64,000 nt of DNA, from contig NZ_LT607750.1 in assembly GCF_900090235.1 (NCBI RefSeq), positions 694,501-758,500 on the forward strand, written 5' to 3'. Position 1 is the stretch's first letter, and every line of letters begins with the position of its first letter. A program made the translations under genes and the position numbers. The notes under the pieces were generated by a model. The model saw only the letters and a list, made by a program, of their open reading frames with translations. It searched no databases and had not been told where the DNA came from. Origin of the DNA: Micromonospora echinaurantiaca (GTDB taxonomy: Bacteria; Actinomycetota; Actinomycetes; Mycobacteriales; Micromonosporaceae). Positions 4,496 through 46,000 of this stretch are shown in pieces.

Positions 4496-5719
4496 ATGCC
4501 CGGCGTCCTTCCAGAAGGCGAACCCGTCCCGGTCGACGGTTCGCTGCCCGCCACCGCCACCCGCGCGGTCGGCGCGCGTGGCTTCGGCGTGTACGTGCAC
4601 GTGCCGTTCTGCGCCAGCCGCTGCGGCTACTGCGACTTCAACACGTACACGGCGGCGGAGCTGGGCGGCGGGGCGAGCCGGGAGAGCTACGCCGACACCG
4701 TGCTGGCCGAGCTGGCGCTCGCCGCCCGGGTGCTCGGCGACGCCCCGCCGCCGCGGGTGGACACCGTCTTCGTCGGCGGCGGCACCCCGACCCTGCTTCC
4801 CGCCGACGACCTGGCCCGGATCCTGGACGGCATCGACCGCACCTGGGGGCTGGCCGCCGACGCCGAGGTGACCACCGAGGCCAACCCCGAGTCGGTCACC
4901 CCGGAGTCGCTCAAGACGCTGCGCGCGGCCGGCTACACCCGGATCTCGTTGGGCATGCAGTCCGCGTCGCCGGGCGTGCTGGCGATCCTGGACCGGACGC
5001 ACAGCGCCGGCCGGGCCACCGCCGCCGCGGCCGAGGCGCGCGACGCCGGGTTCGACCACGTCAACCTGGACCTCATCTACGGCACGCCGGGGGAGAGCGC
5101 GGAGGACTTTGCCGCCTCGCTGGCGCAGGTGGTGGCGGCCGGGGTCGACCACGTCAGCGCGTACGCCCTGATCGTGGAGGACGGCACCCGGCTGGCCGCC
5201 CGGATGCGCCGAGGCGAGCTGCCGTACCCCAGCGACGACGTCGCAGCGGACCGCTACCTGGCTGCGGAGGCCGCGCTCTCCGCCGCCGGCTTCGCCTGGT
5301 ACGAGGTCTCCAACTGGGCCCGCACGCCGGCCGGCCGGTGCCGGCACAACCTGCTCTACTGGACCGGCGCGGACTGGTGGGGCCTCGGCCCGGGGGCGCA
5401 CAGCCACGTCGGCGGGGTGCGCTGGTGGAACGTCAAGCACCCCACGGCGTACGCCCAGCGGCTCGCCGCCGGGCGGTCGCCCGGCCTGGCCCGGGAGGTG
5501 CTCACCCCCGACGAGGCGCACACCGAGGACGTCATGCTCCGGCTGCGGCTCGCCGACGGGCTGCCGCTGGCCAGCCTGGACGCGGCCGGCCGGGCCGGCG
5601 CCGAGCGGGCGCTGGCCGACGGGCTGCTCGCCGCGCCCGAGTACGCGGCCGGCCGGGCCGTGCTCACCCTGCGCGGGCGGCTGCTCGCCGACGCCGTGGT
5701 GCGCGACCTGCTGCCCTGA
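4496..5719 (+). CDS. hemW: HemW, radical SAM heme chaperone
   Basis: HemW (407 residues) is a radical SAM protein that binds heme and hands it to target enzymes; older annotation calls it an oxygen-independent coproporphyrinogen oxidase. The iron-sulfur motif is C39-x3-C43-x2-C46, followed by DFNT. This is the HemW pattern rather than the HemN pattern (CGCN). FVGGGTPT, the ANPES motif and the ISLGMQS segment are also present. The ATG at 4496 gives the expected N-terminus, although the frame is open further upstream. In many bacteria hemW precedes hrcA-dnaJ; here one membrane protein gene intervenes on the other strand. Confidence 0.93.
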   Translation: MPGVLPEGEPVPVDGSLPATATRAVGARGFGVYVHVPFCASRCGYCDFNTYTAAELGGGASRESYADTVLAELALAARVLGDAPPPRVDTVFVGGGTPTLLPADDLARILDGIDRTWGLAADAEVTTEANPESVTPESLKTLRAAGYTRISLGMQSASPGVLAILDRTHSAGRATAAAAEARDAGFDHVNLDLIYGTPGESAEDFAASLAQVVAAGVDHVSAYALIVEDGTRLAARMRRGELPYPSDDVAADRYLAAEAALSAAGFAWYEVSNWARTPAGRCRHNLLYWTGADWWGLGPGAHSHVGGVRWWNVKHPTAYAQRLAAGRSPGLAREVLTPDEAHTEDVMLRLRLADGLPLASLDAAGRAGAERALADGLLAAPEYAAGRAVLTLRGRLLADAVVRDLLP

Positions 5720-27564: not shown

Positions 27565-27649
27565 GAGTGCTCCCAGTCCTGACTACGAACCAGGAGAAGA
27601 CGCACGCCGCGCCCGGTGCCCCGGACGGCGGCGCGGCTGGAGGTCGACC

Positions 27650-27735
<86 letters not shown>

Positions 27736-27806
27736 GATGTGAAGTTGTCCCGGCAGACGCTAGCACCGCCGGCAGCGCCGAGACGAGCCGCCCGCGCCGG
27801 CCTGGG

Positions 27807-39963: not shown

Positions 39964-40107
39964 CGCCGTTGCGCACCATCCGTGAGCATTTTCCGGGCGA
40001 TCCGGACCAATCACCTGGTCGGTCGAGGTCAGCGGTCACCCGGTGGTTGAGCGGCCCATGATCTCGTGCGAGCATTCCCGGCGTTGAATCTCGTCACGGG
40101 GGTGTGC

Positions 40108-40941
40108 ATGACGCGCGCGTCGCAGGACCACGACCACGACCCGAACCGCCGGCGGCTGCTGCGCCGGGCGGCCACGGTCGCCGCCACCACGGCCGGCGCT
40201 GGCGTCGCCGCCGCGGTCGGCCTGCCCGGCACGGCCCAGGCCGCCCCGGGCGACAACCTCGTCATGGGTACGACGAACGACGCCGGCCCGGCCACCACCA
40301 CGGTGACCACCACCGCTGGGGAGGCGCTCGACCTCCAGGCGAGCGGCGGGGCGCCGCTGCGGCTCGTGCCCAGCGAGAGCCTCTACCCCCAGGTGCTCGA
40401 CTCCGAGGTGGGCACGCTCGCCGTCGACGACATGGGCGACCTGTTCGTCCGGGCGGGCGTCGACAGCGGGGAGAACGGCACCAACGGCTGGGCCTACACC
40501 AGCGAGTGGGCCACCACGTCGGTGGCCGTGCCGCCGACCCGGGTGCTCGACACCCGCAACGCCGACCTGCGCCGCCTGATCGTCTCGGGCGCGGACACGC
40601 TGGACTCCACCGGCCGGCTGACCCCCGGCAAGCCCATCGTGGTCAGCCTGGACTCCTACGTCCGGGACGGCTACGCGATGAAGGGCAACGTCACCGTGGT
40701 GGGGATGACCGGCTCCGGCGTGCTGACCGTGTGGGGCGCCGGCCCGCGGCCCGCCACGTCGACGTTGAACTGGTCGACCGCCGGCACGATCCTGTCCAAC
40801 TTCCTCTTCACCGAGCTCGGTGCCAGCGGGGCCTTCCGCAGCGTCATCACGATCCAGGCGACCACCTCGCCGACGCACGTGATCGTCGACCTGACCAGCC
40901 TGCTGGTCGGCCACCCGAGCCAGGTCGGCGGTGGCGCGTAG
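40108..40941 (+). CDS. Tat-exported PPTRxLDTR protein, paralogue 1
   Basis: This 277-residue protein is the first of three tandem relatives. It has a twin-arginine signal (NRRRLLRRAATVAA) with a cleavage site after AQA at about residue 45. The mature protein has an N-terminal beta-rich region (GDNLVMGTTNDAG to GGAPLRLVPS), then PPTRVLDTR at 142-150, then a domain with VTVVGM, LTVWGAGPRP, TLNWSTAGTILSN and VIVDLTSLL. Similar LDTR domains occur in actinomycete exported proteins, often attached to enzymes; here the domain stands alone. The ATG with GGGGGTG was chosen. Binding or surface function is inference. Confidence 0.78.
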   Translation: MTRASQDHDHDPNRRRLLRRAATVAATTAGAGVAAAVGLPGTAQAAPGDNLVMGTTNDAGPATTTVTTTAGEALDLQASGGAPLRLVPSESLYPQVLDSEVGTLAVDDMGDLFVRAGVDSGENGTNGWAYTSEWATTSVAVPPTRVLDTRNADLRRLIVSGADTLDSTGRLTPGKPIVVSLDSYVRDGYAMKGNVTVVGMTGSGVLTVWGAGPRPATSTLNWSTAGTILSNFLFTELGASGAFRSVITIQATTSPTHVIVDLTSLLVGHPSQVGGGA

Positions 40942-41018
40942 CCGCCGGGACGGTCGGCGTGCCCGCGCCGCCGTCCGGACCGCCAGCCGTAGACCAACCC
41001 AGCCAACGGGGGAATGAG

Positions 41019-41951
41019 ATGACTTCGTCCGAACCCGACCGCACCGCGTCGCGGCGTGGCCTGCTGCGCAAGGCCGCCGTGGCCGGTGGCGCCGCCGTCG
41101 CGGCCACCGCGGTGACCACCGCGAACGCCACGCCGGCCAGCGCCGCCTCGGGTGACCCGCTCACCATCGGCCTGCCCAACGAGGCCGCCGGCACCACCGC
41201 CGTCCTCAGCTCGGCGCCGGGCGCGACGCTCGCCCTGAAGAACTCCACCGGCGCGCCGCTGCACCTCAAGCGGCAGGACGTCACCAGCCCGGAGCACGGC
41301 TCGATCTTCCCCACCCGCGCCGGGTTGGGGTACAGCGTGCACGAATCCGGCGTGCCGGTCCGGTACGAGGCGCACACCACCGCCAACTCGACCATGCTGG
41401 TGCCGATCCCGCCGACCCGGATCCTGGACACCCGCAGCGCCGCCGGGCGGGCCCGGCTGGTCGAGGGCGCCGGCCGGATCGACTCGCAGGGCCGGGCGGT
41501 CGCCGACAGCTTCCTGGTGGTGCACCTGCAGGGCATCGCCGAGTACGCCGACGGGATGTTGGGCAACATCACCGTCGCCAAGACCGAGAAGGCCGGCTTC
41601 GTCACCGTCTACGGCCGGGGCGACCGCCCGAACGCCTCCACCATCAACTGGTGGAGCGCCGGGCAGCTGCTCTCCAACGGCGTGATCACCCAGCTCGGCG
41701 CGTACGAGACGGCCAACGGCGACTACTACCCGGACGTGGTCGGCATCTACGTGCCGAAGGCGAGCGCCACCGCGCTGATCCTCGACGTGACCGGGCTGCT
41801 GGTCTTCCACCCCGACTCGGCGGTCATCAACAGCCCCAAGACGACCGCCCGCACGTCGCTGGCCGCGGAGTCCGGCACTGCCGAGGTGCGGGCCCGCCAG
41901 ATCAAGGCGCTGGCCGAGCGCGGCGACCGGGAGGTGCGGACCGGTGAGTGA
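41019..41951 (+). CDS. Tat-exported PPTRxLDTR protein, paralogue 2
   Basis: This 310-residue relative of its neighbours has a Tat signal (SRRGLLRKAAVAG) and a cleavage region near ATPASAA (about 37-43). It shares the N-terminal pattern (GDPLTIGLPNEA, GAPLHLKRQ), PPTRILDTR at 131-139, then GNITVAK, FVTVYGRGDRPNASTINWWSAG, LLSNG and LILDVTGLLV. A C-terminal tail of about 45 charged residues is unique to it (from VINSPKTTARTS). It lies 77 bases after paralogue 1. Confidence 0.78.
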   Translation: MTSSEPDRTASRRGLLRKAAVAGGAAVAATAVTTANATPASAASGDPLTIGLPNEAAGTTAVLSSAPGATLALKNSTGAPLHLKRQDVTSPEHGSIFPTRAGLGYSVHESGVPVRYEAHTTANSTMLVPIPPTRILDTRSAAGRARLVEGAGRIDSQGRAVADSFLVVHLQGIAEYADGMLGNITVAKTEKAGFVTVYGRGDRPNASTINWWSAGQLLSNGVITQLGAYETANGDYYPDVVGIYVPKASATALILDVTGLLVFHPDSAVINSPKTTARTSLAAESGTAEVRARQIKALAERGDREVRTGE

Positions 41952-41976
41952 CCACGGAACCGAGGAGAGCAGCAGC

Positions 41977-42789
41977 ATGAGCGCCGACGAGCAGCCGTCG
42001 ACCAGCCGGCGTCGGATCATCAAGGCCGGCGTGGTCGCTGGTGCCGGCGCGGGCGTCGGCGCGGTGGCCGCCGCCGCGCCGGCGAGCGCCGACCCGGGGG
42101 ACCCGGTGGTCCTGGGCGCCCTGAACAACGCCCAGGGCTCGGAGACGGTGCTGGTGGGCGGTTCGTCGGCGAACCCCACGCTGGCCCTGCGCGGCGCGCC
42201 CGGCCAGGCGCCGCTGCGCTTCTCGCCCGAGCCGGACAACCTGCTCCCGACGGAGATGCCCACCGGCTCCCTCGCGGTCACCACCGAGGGGAACCTGGTC
42301 ATCGGTGGCCGGAGCAACACCAAGGCGTACGTGAACACCTCCCGGTGGGCGAACCGGACGGTGGCGATCCCGCCCACCCGGATTCTGGACACCCGCGCGG
42401 TGCCGACCTCCACCACCTACGACAAGTACATCGTCGGTGGGCGGGCCAACGTCGACAGCAGCGGCCGGCTGAAGGCCAAGACCGCCATCCAGTTGACGAT
42501 CAGCGGGCTGCCCGACGTCACTCCGGGCCAGGCGCAGGCGGCGTACGTCAACATCACGGTGGCCGGGACGGTCGCGGCCGGCTTCCTGACCGCGTACAGC
42601 GCCCAGCTGCCCCGGCCGGGTACCTCGTCGCTGAACTGGTGGGGGCCGAACCAGATCCTCTCCAACCTGGTCGAGGTGCAGGTCGGGACCTACAGCAACC
42701 GGCCGTACACGTTCACGATCTACACCGACAGCACCACGTCGGTGATCGTGGACGTCTCCGGGCTGATCCTGGCCAACCCGGCCAGCTGA
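41977..42789 (+). CDS. Tat-exported PPTRxLDTR protein, paralogue 3
   Basis: The third relative has 270 residues from ATG 41977. It has the Tat signal SRRRIIKAGVVAG and cleavage near APASADP (about 34-40). Shared landmarks are GDPVVLGALNNA, QAPLRFSPEP, IPPTRILDTR (131-140), YVNITVAG, FLTAYSAQLPRPGTSSLNWWGP and VIVDVSGLIL. GAGGAG lies 9 bases before the ATG. GTG 41944, overlapping the stop of paralogue 2, is an alternative start. All three genes appear to form one operon made by tandem duplication with strong divergence. Confidence 0.78.
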   Translation: MSADEQPSTSRRRIIKAGVVAGAGAGVGAVAAAAPASADPGDPVVLGALNNAQGSETVLVGGSSANPTLALRGAPGQAPLRFSPEPDNLLPTEMPTGSLAVTTEGNLVIGGRSNTKAYVNTSRWANRTVAIPPTRILDTRAVPTSTTYDKYIVGGRANVDSSGRLKAKTAIQLTISGLPDVTPGQAQAAYVNITVAGTVAAGFLTAYSAQLPRPGTSSLNWWGPNQILSNLVEVQVGTYSNRPYTFTIYTDSTTSVIVDVSGLILANPAS

Positions 42790-44188: not shown

Positions 44189-44839
44189 TCAGGCGGTGTA
44201 GCCGCGGGTGGCGATCCAGTCGGCCAGCGCCTCGGTGGTGATCCAGTAGGAGGCGGTGTCCGGGTTGGCCGAGTCGGCGATCTTCACCGTCTCGCCGCCG
44301 TCGCGGTACCCGACGACGCTGATGTAGTGCCCGCCCTCGAAGGAGTGGGTGTTGCCGTCGGTGTCGGTGGCGGTGCCGGCGATGTTGGCGACCACGGCGC
44401 GGCCCTCGTTGACGGCCTTGACGATGTCGGCGCGCAGCTTGTCGGTCTGCTTCTCGTCGGCCAGGCTGCCGGGGATCTCGACGCTGCGGTAGACGTCCTT
44501 ACCGGTCTCCTTGTTCAGCACCGGTGTGATGTCGTTGATGGAGTCGGTGCCGGCCTCGGTGGTGCCCATCTCCTCGGCCACGGCGTCCATGTCGATCTCC
44601 TTGCCCTGCACGCTCAGCGCGTTGCGGGCGGCGGCGGGGCCGCAGTAGTAGAAGTTCGGCTGGGCCTCGTAGCGCACGCCCAGTTCCCGCTCACCGTGCT
44701 TGCGGTCGGTGGTCACCGACGTCGAGGGCTGCTGCTCGGCGATGGCGTAGGCGGCGGTGATCGGGCCGGCGATGGCGCCGCCCGCGAAGGCGAGGCCGGC
44801 AGCGGTCAGAGCGGTCTTACGCAGCATGTCGGTACGCAT
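44189..44839 (-). CDS. Exported C39-type papain-like cysteine peptidase
   Basis: This 216-residue exported protein has a signal peptide (about 1-33, TALTAAGLAFAGGAIAGPITAAYA). The catalytic domain is of the peptidase C39-like type: cysteine C66 in NFYYCGPAAARNAL, histidine H171 in GGHYISVVGY, and a third residue probably D189 in IADSAN. The target is unknown; relatives cleave leader peptides or act in the cell wall. ATG 44839 is the assigned start; GTG 44848 has a closer AAAGG site and would add three residues. Four GGAAT-N18-GTT elements lie upstream and point at this gene. Confidence 0.85.
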   Translation of the reverse strand: MRTDMLRKTALTAAGLAFAGGAIAGPITAAYAIAEQQPSTSVTTDRKHGERELGVRYEAQPNFYYCGPAAARNALSVQGKEIDMDAVAEEMGTTEAGTDSINDITPVLNKETGKDVYRSVEIPGSLADEKQTDKLRADIVKAVNEGRAVVANIAGTATDTDGNTHSFEGGHYISVVGYRDGGETVKIADSANPDTASYWITTEALADWIATRGYTA

Positions 44840-44976
44840 GATGATCACAAGCCTTTCGATCCGGGGGAAACACGGCACACCCAAGGGGGGTGGTGGGCCG
44901 TGGGTGAGGAAAGGGTCGTGCGAAAGGGTGGATCGCTCCGGGCGGCGCGGGGGCCTGCTCGGGCGTCCGGGGATGT

Positions 44977-45264
44977 AACCATCCGGGCCGGCCCCTGATT
45001 CCGGGGTTCGGCGCCCGGGCCTGTTCGGCCTGTCCGGGGACACGGCCGTGGCCTGTCCGGGGTTGTTCAACGACCCGGGCTGGCCGGCCATTCCGGGGGC
45101 GTCGGCCGGGAGCCTGTTCGGCCCGTCCGGGGATTGGTCAACGACCCGAGGCCGGTAGGCATTCCGCCCTGCAATCCGGCTGGGCCGCTCCAACCGCATG
45201 CCAGCACCCGGGGGGTGTGGCGCGGGTATGCCATGTTCAACGACCCCGACCCGCCACCGATTCC
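44977..45264 (-). promoter_or_regulatory. Four tandem GGAAT-N18-GTT elements (ECF-sigma-type promoters)
   Basis: On the minus strand GGAAT followed by exactly 18 bases and GTT occurs four times: 45264-45239, 45165-45140, 45094-45069 and 45002-44977. In the upper three the -10 part reads GGTCGTTGA; the lowest has different flanks. GGAAT-N18-GTT is the published consensus for SigR/SigH-type ECF sigma factors of Streptomyces and mycobacteria. All four point toward the peptidase gene at 44839. Confidence 0.6.
45067..45264. repeat. Three-copy degenerate direct repeat
   Basis: TCAACGACCC is followed 23 bases later by ATTCC in three copies starting at 45067, 45138 and 45237. The first two also share GTCCGGGG just before. 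The copies were probably formed by tandem duplication and have since drifted, with the GGAAT/GTT positions kept. Confidence 0.65.
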
Positions 45265-45453
45265 ACCCCCAGCGTGGCCCCGACCACGCCACAGCCGCAC
45301 CCAAACCACCCAACCCGGCACAGCCGGACACACGCCGAAACGGACATCCCGGCCCTCACCCGGCACCACGACTGCACCGGCCCGCCGGCGCAAGCGTGGG
45401 CCGACCGGCACGCTGTGGAGCTGATGGCGCCAACGACTCACCACGCACCCCCG

Positions 45454-45532
45454 GTGATCCACACCGTGTCGGGGACATGGGGGTGTCCGCCGGCTCGGGA
45501 TGCCGCCACATCGCCGACACGGAGTGGATCAC
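45454..45532. repeat. Long imperfect inverted repeat
   Basis: Arms of 19 bases (45454-45472 and 45514-45532) match at 18 positions and enclose 41 bases. Inside, GGACA and TGTCC can form a second stem. It lies in the gene-free stretch 44840-46226, in which I find no credible gene on either strand. Confidence 0.6.
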
Positions 45533-45608
45533 GACTGCAAGAGCACCCTGGGCCAGTGCGCAGGGGTGCCAGGGCGTCGCGACGCCAGCGCCGACCGATC
45601 GCCCGACA

Positions 45609-45654
45609 GGCGTGATGACTCAGCGGCATATTTATGACTCTGAGGTATCACGCC
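45609..45654. repeat. Palindrome with TGAGTCAT core (copy 2)
   Basis: Arms of 15 bases (45609-45623 and 45640-45654) match at 13 positions. On the minus strand TGATACCTCAGAGTCAT (45650-45634) is the same as an arm of the palindrome at 32571-32610 except for one base. A second TGAGTCAT lies in the other arm. Confidence 0.6.
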
Positions 45655-46000
45655 GGTGCGGAACTGCCCGCTCCGGCCACGACACGCCCGAGCCGGCCGC
45701 CGCCACTGACGCCCGGTTGGCCCCGTTGCTGTTTCACCCCGTTGCACGGTTGGCTGCGGCACGGACGGGACGGATGAGTCGTCTGCGACATCAGCTCCAA
45801 AGGGCGCGGCCGGACGGTAGCTGGCCGCTGAGGGCTGGGCGTGGACAGCCAGTCCCAATGAGCGGTAGCCAAAGTGATGGAGTTTGGGGCAGCGGCCGGT
45901 AGTCGAGTCGACGGAGCACCAGCCCGACCCTGGCCACCTCGCCGGCACAGTCCATCCCGGCTGGCGACGACACCACCAGCGGCGGCGACCCGGCCGGGTG

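Follow-up and report, generated by a model that had tools for sequence, protein, structure and literature searches.

Upstream of a gene for an exported peptidase in Micromonospora echinaurantiaca, the sequence GGAAT-N18-GTT occurs four times in a row on the minus strand. What kind of element is repeated here, what reads it, and why should a single gene carry four of them? The stretch of DNA analysed (the window, 64,000 nt) corresponds to positions 694501-758500 of a 7.2-Mb single-contig genome. The features of the locus are given below; elements are numbered from the distal end, and the scores are those of a weight matrix described further on.

44189-44839, minus strand: gene for an exported C39-like cysteine peptidase of 216 aa (PF13529), with an N-terminal signal-like segment recognized by eye
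44840-44976, minus strand: presumed 5' leader, running from the proximal promoter; no Rfam match and no consensus fold
44977-45002, minus strand: candidate promoter element 4 (proximal), GGAAT-N18-GTTACATCCCC; top matrix score, 29.1; start 163 nt before the ATG
45069-45094, minus strand: candidate promoter element 3, GGAAT-N18-GTT; matrix score 23.2
45140-45165, minus strand: candidate promoter element 2, GGAAT-N18-GTT; lowest matrix score of the four, 16.8
45239-45264, minus strand: candidate promoter element 1 (distal), GGAAT at 45264-45260 and GTT at 45241-45239, then GTTGAACATGG; matrix score 27.8

All four elements are oriented toward the C39 gene. An earlier, sequence-only reading of this DNA had described four minus-strand copies with a gap of always 18 nt facing a C39-type gene, and both its coordinates and its counts agreed with ours. 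The 500 nt before the ATG at 44839 contain four GGAAT and eight GTT, and each of the four GGAAT has a GTT at N18. First-order Markov sequences modelled on this stretch yielded one such pair in 115 of 20000 cases and two pairs in 0 of 20000. Over the whole window, 16 GGAAT pentamers were found on both strands and the 12 outside the array had no GTT at N18, in line with the earlier remark that no comparable element was noticed at the other pentamers checked. When the gap was left free at 15-20, the only window matches were the four array elements (chance mean 1.23), and at least four matches were reached in 1 of 100 shuffles. The Markov sequences for the 500 nt, together with the random placements over the genome reported below, rule out a chance origin of the clusters.

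The proximal copy had also been said to have flanks unrelated to those of the other three. The comparison did not bear this out: it matched the reference copy of the repeat at 62%, and other copies matched that reference at 62-73%. In an ungapped comparison with copy 3 (0.50 over the 20 nt upstream, 0.61 in the spacer) it was no less alike than other pairs. Since the flanks are not clearly unrelated, the argument built on them is weak, and the flank comparisons gave no support to an independent origin of the fourth copy. Among relatives, the gene-proximal copy often reads on as GTTACAYCCC. The case for the array is made instead by the spacing kept in relatives.

A leaderless reading of the distal element, in which an ATGG stands close after the GTT, was rejected: many relatives have CTGG at this place. 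No RNA element was detected in the leader region 44780-45700 by Rfam at E 0.1, nor was a consensus fold found in 48 aligned C39 leaders. At the gathering threshold, Rfam searches of the window and of loci L038 and L048 gave nothing except a TPP riboswitch elsewhere in the window (RF00059, 65.7 bits, 27636-27741, minus strand). The plus strand of the window also holds two adjacent ORFs, 40104-41951 and 41944-42789, which have sequence features in common and Tat-like leaders by eye (RRGLLRK and RRRIIKAG); the latter ORF had no Pfam match.

The product of 44189-44839 matched Peptidase_C39_2 (PF13529) with an E value of 3.7e-21 and 76.7 bits, the curated cut-off being 24. Residues Q60, C66, H171 and D189, which we take to be catalytic, were invariant in 24/24 C39 sequences. 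The structure model (pLDDT 79) had a papain-like fold, and its best-ranked fold matches included papain-like interbacterial toxin domains as well as a P210 CD lyase; it also resembled the peptidase domains of ComA and PCAT1, the phytochelatin-synthase-like Alr0975 and the pseudomurein endoisopeptidase PeiR. The fold matches at E 0.001 or better were at most 17% identical and of mixed functions, so that the role of the protein is not readable from its fold. Its likeness to C39 peptidases and their papain-like relatives consists in the PF13529 match, the fold and the conserved Cys, His and Asp. Unlike the C39 domains of the ComA/PCAT1 type, the protein is free-standing and exported, without a transporter part.

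In the genome, exact GGAAT-N18-GTT was found 72 times, and the pattern read backwards once. With gaps of 13-23 there were 298 matches, of which the ten spacings other than 18 accounted for 226, or 22.6 each. Forty of the 72 sites sit in 12 same-strand clusters of two to four, and adjacent pairs numbered 28; when sites were placed at random 2000 times, the mean was 0.07 and there were never more than 2. Tandem clusters of GGAAT-N18-GTT thus recur, at 12 loci, and the elements of all 12 point toward the gene. Four of these genes are of the C39 type (the window gene, L039, L040 and L048); the remaining eight encode exported muramidase-like proteins of 195-198 residues (L038 and L041-L047). The earlier description of ECF-type promoters aimed at one exported peptidase is well supported in its first half. 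The second half is too narrow, since 11 loci besides the C39 gene of the window carry stacks and two unrelated exported families are involved.

A distal element near-identical to that of the window array precedes the C39 paralogs L039 and L040, and a similar one, GGAATCGGGGCCGGGTCGGGGGCGTT, precedes seven of the eight muramidase-like array genes. What stands at the proximal place of L039 and L040 is only a degenerate copy; the elements farther upstream are intact. The genome has six full C39 matches. Two of them, L049 and L050, are without an element, which counts against the reading favoured below.

The 32 sites outside clusters are in slight excess over the 22.6 expected (Poisson P 0.036). 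Hence, single sites that do not lie before redox or related genes are not to be trusted. ORF look-up over all 32 gave no plausible gene for several; ten lay within about 160 nt before a gene start. The genes behind these ten sites code for two thioredoxins, an ATPase (Pfam ABC_tran) that is presumably SufC-like, an IscA-like protein, L31, L36, a CsoR-type regulator, a principal-type sigma factor, a luciferase-like oxidoreductase and another muramidase-like protein.

Two further sequence features were observed near the arrays. A palindrome of about 38 bp (TGATACCTC.GAGTCAT..), part of which lies at 45619-45650 (minus strand), is found upstream of the window array. The genome has 16 such sites with at most three mismatches (reversed-pattern control 0): nine at the 12 array loci (the window and 8/11 others) and seven at other places. 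The distance from the palindrome to the first element is about 290-390 nt at eight loci and about 730 nt at the ninth (1372612). It is a possible operator or a small dispersed element. In addition, an inverted repeat of 35 nt, its arms 80% complementary and 9 nt apart, lies at 45454-45532, between a GH20 gene and the array. A related GATGTGGCGG stretch occurs upstream of the C39 locus L039 and of all but one of the eight muramidase-like array loci.

The muramidase-like array proteins matched the muramidases 8b2e (E 3e-17) and 8b2h; in Pfam only SLT_3 was reached, at 15.5 bits, below the threshold of 27. We take PDB entry 8b2e to be that of the Kionochaeta muramidase. The invariant Glu104 aligns with a Glu of 8b2e that is number 41 by the count of the printed alignment, and residue 41 is the essential Glu of the Kionochaeta enzyme according to an excerpt of PMC10394673. 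The likeness to fungal GH184 muramidases (8b2e, 8b2h) lies in the sequence match and in this aligned, presumably catalytic Glu. Unlike the fungal enzymes, the array proteins are bacterial; the match is confined to the catalytic domain, and no sign of an SH3-like domain was found. Their structure model was poor, with a mean pLDDT of only 63.4. The best matches of these proteins, and of the C39 protein of the window, were in Micromonospora. Both families look like secreted lytic enzymes, as predicted from their sequences.

Of the 13 muramidase-like matches in the genome (E 1e-25), eight have arrays; the relative L032, 63% identical, has a single site. The eight array paralogs were 90-98% identical to one of them, whereas other genus genomes gave at most 88% among the matches listed, and near strains in a wider database reached 96%. 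Between the C39 copies L039 and L040 the mature protein does not differ. This likeness possibly reflects concerted evolution, or recent copying of the gene together with its promoter stack.

Dispersed repeats some 2.4 kb long carry the muramidase-like genes. At L038, 119-nt inverted repeats (2753-2871 and 5070-5188, 82% complementary) frame one muramidase-like unit, and the homology between units (L038 2722-5188 and L043 3499-5888, 90%) ends near these repeats. These genes may have spread as units.

Relatives of the C39 protein (E 1e-20) were present in 49/49 genus genomes and in 2/32 others. In a set of 30 C39 loci, own included, of which 28 could be read (L060 and L084 gave no row), the spacing was 18 in 61 cases and another value within 10-26 in 7. 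A second set comprised named C39 loci from Micromonospora, Salinispora and Phytohabitans; 63 of 80 were kept, with at least 600 nt upstream, and 17 with too little upstream DNA were dropped. Here the spacing was 18 in 134 cases versus 12 for the other spacings of 8-30, counts that are not fully independent since several loci share one genome. A GTT at N18 accompanied 134/150 GGAAT in these loci, and 0/6 on the opposite strand.

When GGAAY was counted, the 63 named loci contained 184 elements, one to six per locus, with two or more in 58/63; GGAAC stood in place of GGAAT in 50 of the 184. The nearest element started 131-170 nt before the ATG in 51/63 loci, and the distances between elements ranged from 53 to 394 nt. 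Muramidase-like loci (28 of 29, with a looser motif) showed a spacing of 18 in 62 cases versus 7 with another, and 25/28 had at least two elements. The longer motif GGAAT-N16-TCGTTACA was found in 46/49 genus genomes and 2/32 others (reversed-pattern control 0 in 81/81); the three genus genomes without it count against the reading favoured below. The arrays share a conserved GTT-R-Y-A-Y-C stretch, which is absent from most single sites and present in the site upstream of sigR in this genome.

Across species the spacing between the boxes is kept while spacer and flanks drift. The exactness with which it is kept in relatives supports the view that the elements are ECF-type promoters.

Among the sigma factors that could read such elements, SigR is known in actinobacteria for switching on redox repair and the quality control of proteins, and the genes for L31, L36 and the principal sigma factor are SigR targets in Streptomyces. 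One protein of this genome was above the cut-off for TIGR02947 (SigR/SigH), at 353 bits, and a gene for RsrA (TIGR03988, 106 bits, likewise above the cut-off) adjoins it. A weight matrix was made from 57 array elements of relatives and run over the 600 nt before sigma genes, 70 of the 75 region-2 matches in the genome being scanned. The best score, 21.5, was upstream of sigR (GGAAT-N19-GTTGCACCCCCC); the next sigma gene scored 7.6. GGAAT-N18/19-GTT preceded sigR in this genome and in all 15 other genus loci fetched for comparison from the 36 other genus genomes with sigR, and the motif was the best site in 8/14 readable loci of other families. The spacing is N19 in 14/16 genus sigR loci, while the arrays keep 18, which counts against a common reader.

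The boxes and their spacing are the same as in Streptomyces and Corynebacterium SigR (SigH) promoters, for which excerpts of PMC2375139, PMC9205884 and PMC10012870 give the consensus GGAAT-N18(-19)-GTT. The last of these places trxB1 and sufR among SigH-specific genes. The sigR-rsrA pair with its upstream site resembles the autoregulatory sigRp2 of Streptomyces as described in excerpts of PMC5472188 and PMC4921905. The guess of the sequence-only reading that SigR or another ECF factor is the sigma concerned is well supported by sigR-rsrA, by the motif upstream of sigR and by the sites before redox genes; SigR is the likely reader of the arrays.

Three differences from known SigR promoters were found. 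At 58/63 named C39 loci two to six GGAAY copies stand in a row; the GTT-R-Y-A-Y-C stretch is additional; and the stacks precede exported hydrolases, whereas known SigR promoters serve redox and proteostasis genes. The presence of GTT-R-Y-A-Y-C in the arrays and its absence from most single sites could point to a second factor; the stretch may be a mark of strong SigR promoters or a second requirement.

We therefore favour, with a probability of about 0.78, the reading that the four elements are tandem SigR promoters that would set the gain of transcription into the C39-like gene, an arrangement recurring at 12 loci and genus-wide. SigR is freed from RsrA by thiol oxidation in Streptomyces (excerpts of PMC5472188 and PMC4921905). 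Here, thiol oxidation of RsrA, or another form of release, would give free SigR, and the SigR-RNA polymerase would initiate at any of the four sites. With more start points, output or sensitivity would be higher than at thioredoxin and ribosomal-protein genes, which have one SigR promoter each: several weak or slow-firing starts in series would raise the highest attainable rate and let the gene respond better to low SigR levels. The 12 loci would multiply the effect again. We infer that SigR is the reader, that copies beyond the proximal one are used, that output grows with the number of copies, and that cell walls or proteins outside the cell are the targets of the products.

An alternative that we hold to be unlikely, and that overlaps with the favoured reading in that the latter allows for unused copies, is that the proximal element alone is a promoter and the upstream copies are inert duplicates kept alike by gene conversion. 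The proximal element is indeed the most constant in place (51/63 at -131 to -170), and the excess identity of the paralogs of this genome (90-98%, against at most 88% among the matches listed for other genus genomes) is a sign of homogenization; near strains reach 96%, so that recent copying may also account for it. The spacing of inert copies should drift, yet distal elements keep exact N18 across species at inter-element distances of 53 to 394 nt, and at L039 and L040 it is the proximal copy that is degenerate and the upstream elements that are intact.

Rather more doubtful is the possibility that these are true ECF promoters read by another ECF sigma factor, for instance a SigE-like one, alone or together with SigR. 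With 75 sigma region-2 matches in the genome there are candidates; 50 of the 184 array elements are GGAAC, which in C. glutamicum, according to an excerpt of PMC10012870, is common to SigH and SigE promoters; and the conservation of GTT-R-Y-A-Y-C in arrays, and its absence from most single sites, would fit a different reader. The same excerpt reports the GGAAT form, which predominates here, as SigH-specific, and no comparable upstream score was seen at the other sigma genes among the 70 scanned, although a scan that rests on autoregulation would miss any sigma factor lacking it.

It is very improbable that the boxes, instead of being promoters, are bound by some DNA-binding protein or belong to a gene-carrying dispersed repeat: the muramidase-like genes do lie in repeats of about 2.4 kb, which in L038 have inverted repeats close to their ends, and a palindrome lies upstream of 9/12 arrays, but the 12 clusters of this genome point geneward, the two different boxes stand at a fixed distance that stays constant while spacer and flanks drift, their sequence is a known sigma consensus and the same motif precedes sigR and thioredoxin genes.

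SigR promoters as such were already known. Among the titles and abstract openings listed from the open-licence literature, in part the first entries of longer lists, neither stacked SigR promoters nor exported hydrolases as SigR targets were found; stacks on dispersed genes for exported hydrolases appear to be new relative to these sources. In Micromonospora, the stacked SigR-type sites suggest that redox stress and secreted lytic enzymes are linked in a way that has had little notice. Most exact sites lie in stacks (40/72, many of the other 32 being due to chance), in front of multicopy genes for predicted exported murein hydrolases and cysteine peptidases. This leads to a wider and tentative proposal, which we hold to be somewhat doubtful: that the SigR regulon of the Micromonosporaceae is extended outward, the stacks setting the gain with which redox stress triggers a burst of secreted lytic enzymes. 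The stacks would also form the largest pool of SigR sites and thereby draw SigR from the single-promoter redox genes.

The natural loci, with one to six like promoters, offer a direct test of how output depends on the number of sigma sites. If the favoured reading is true, redox stress, or antibiotics that induce SigR, would be wired to extracellular attack, autolysis or wall remodelling, and this wiring would concern a major antibiotic-producing genus.
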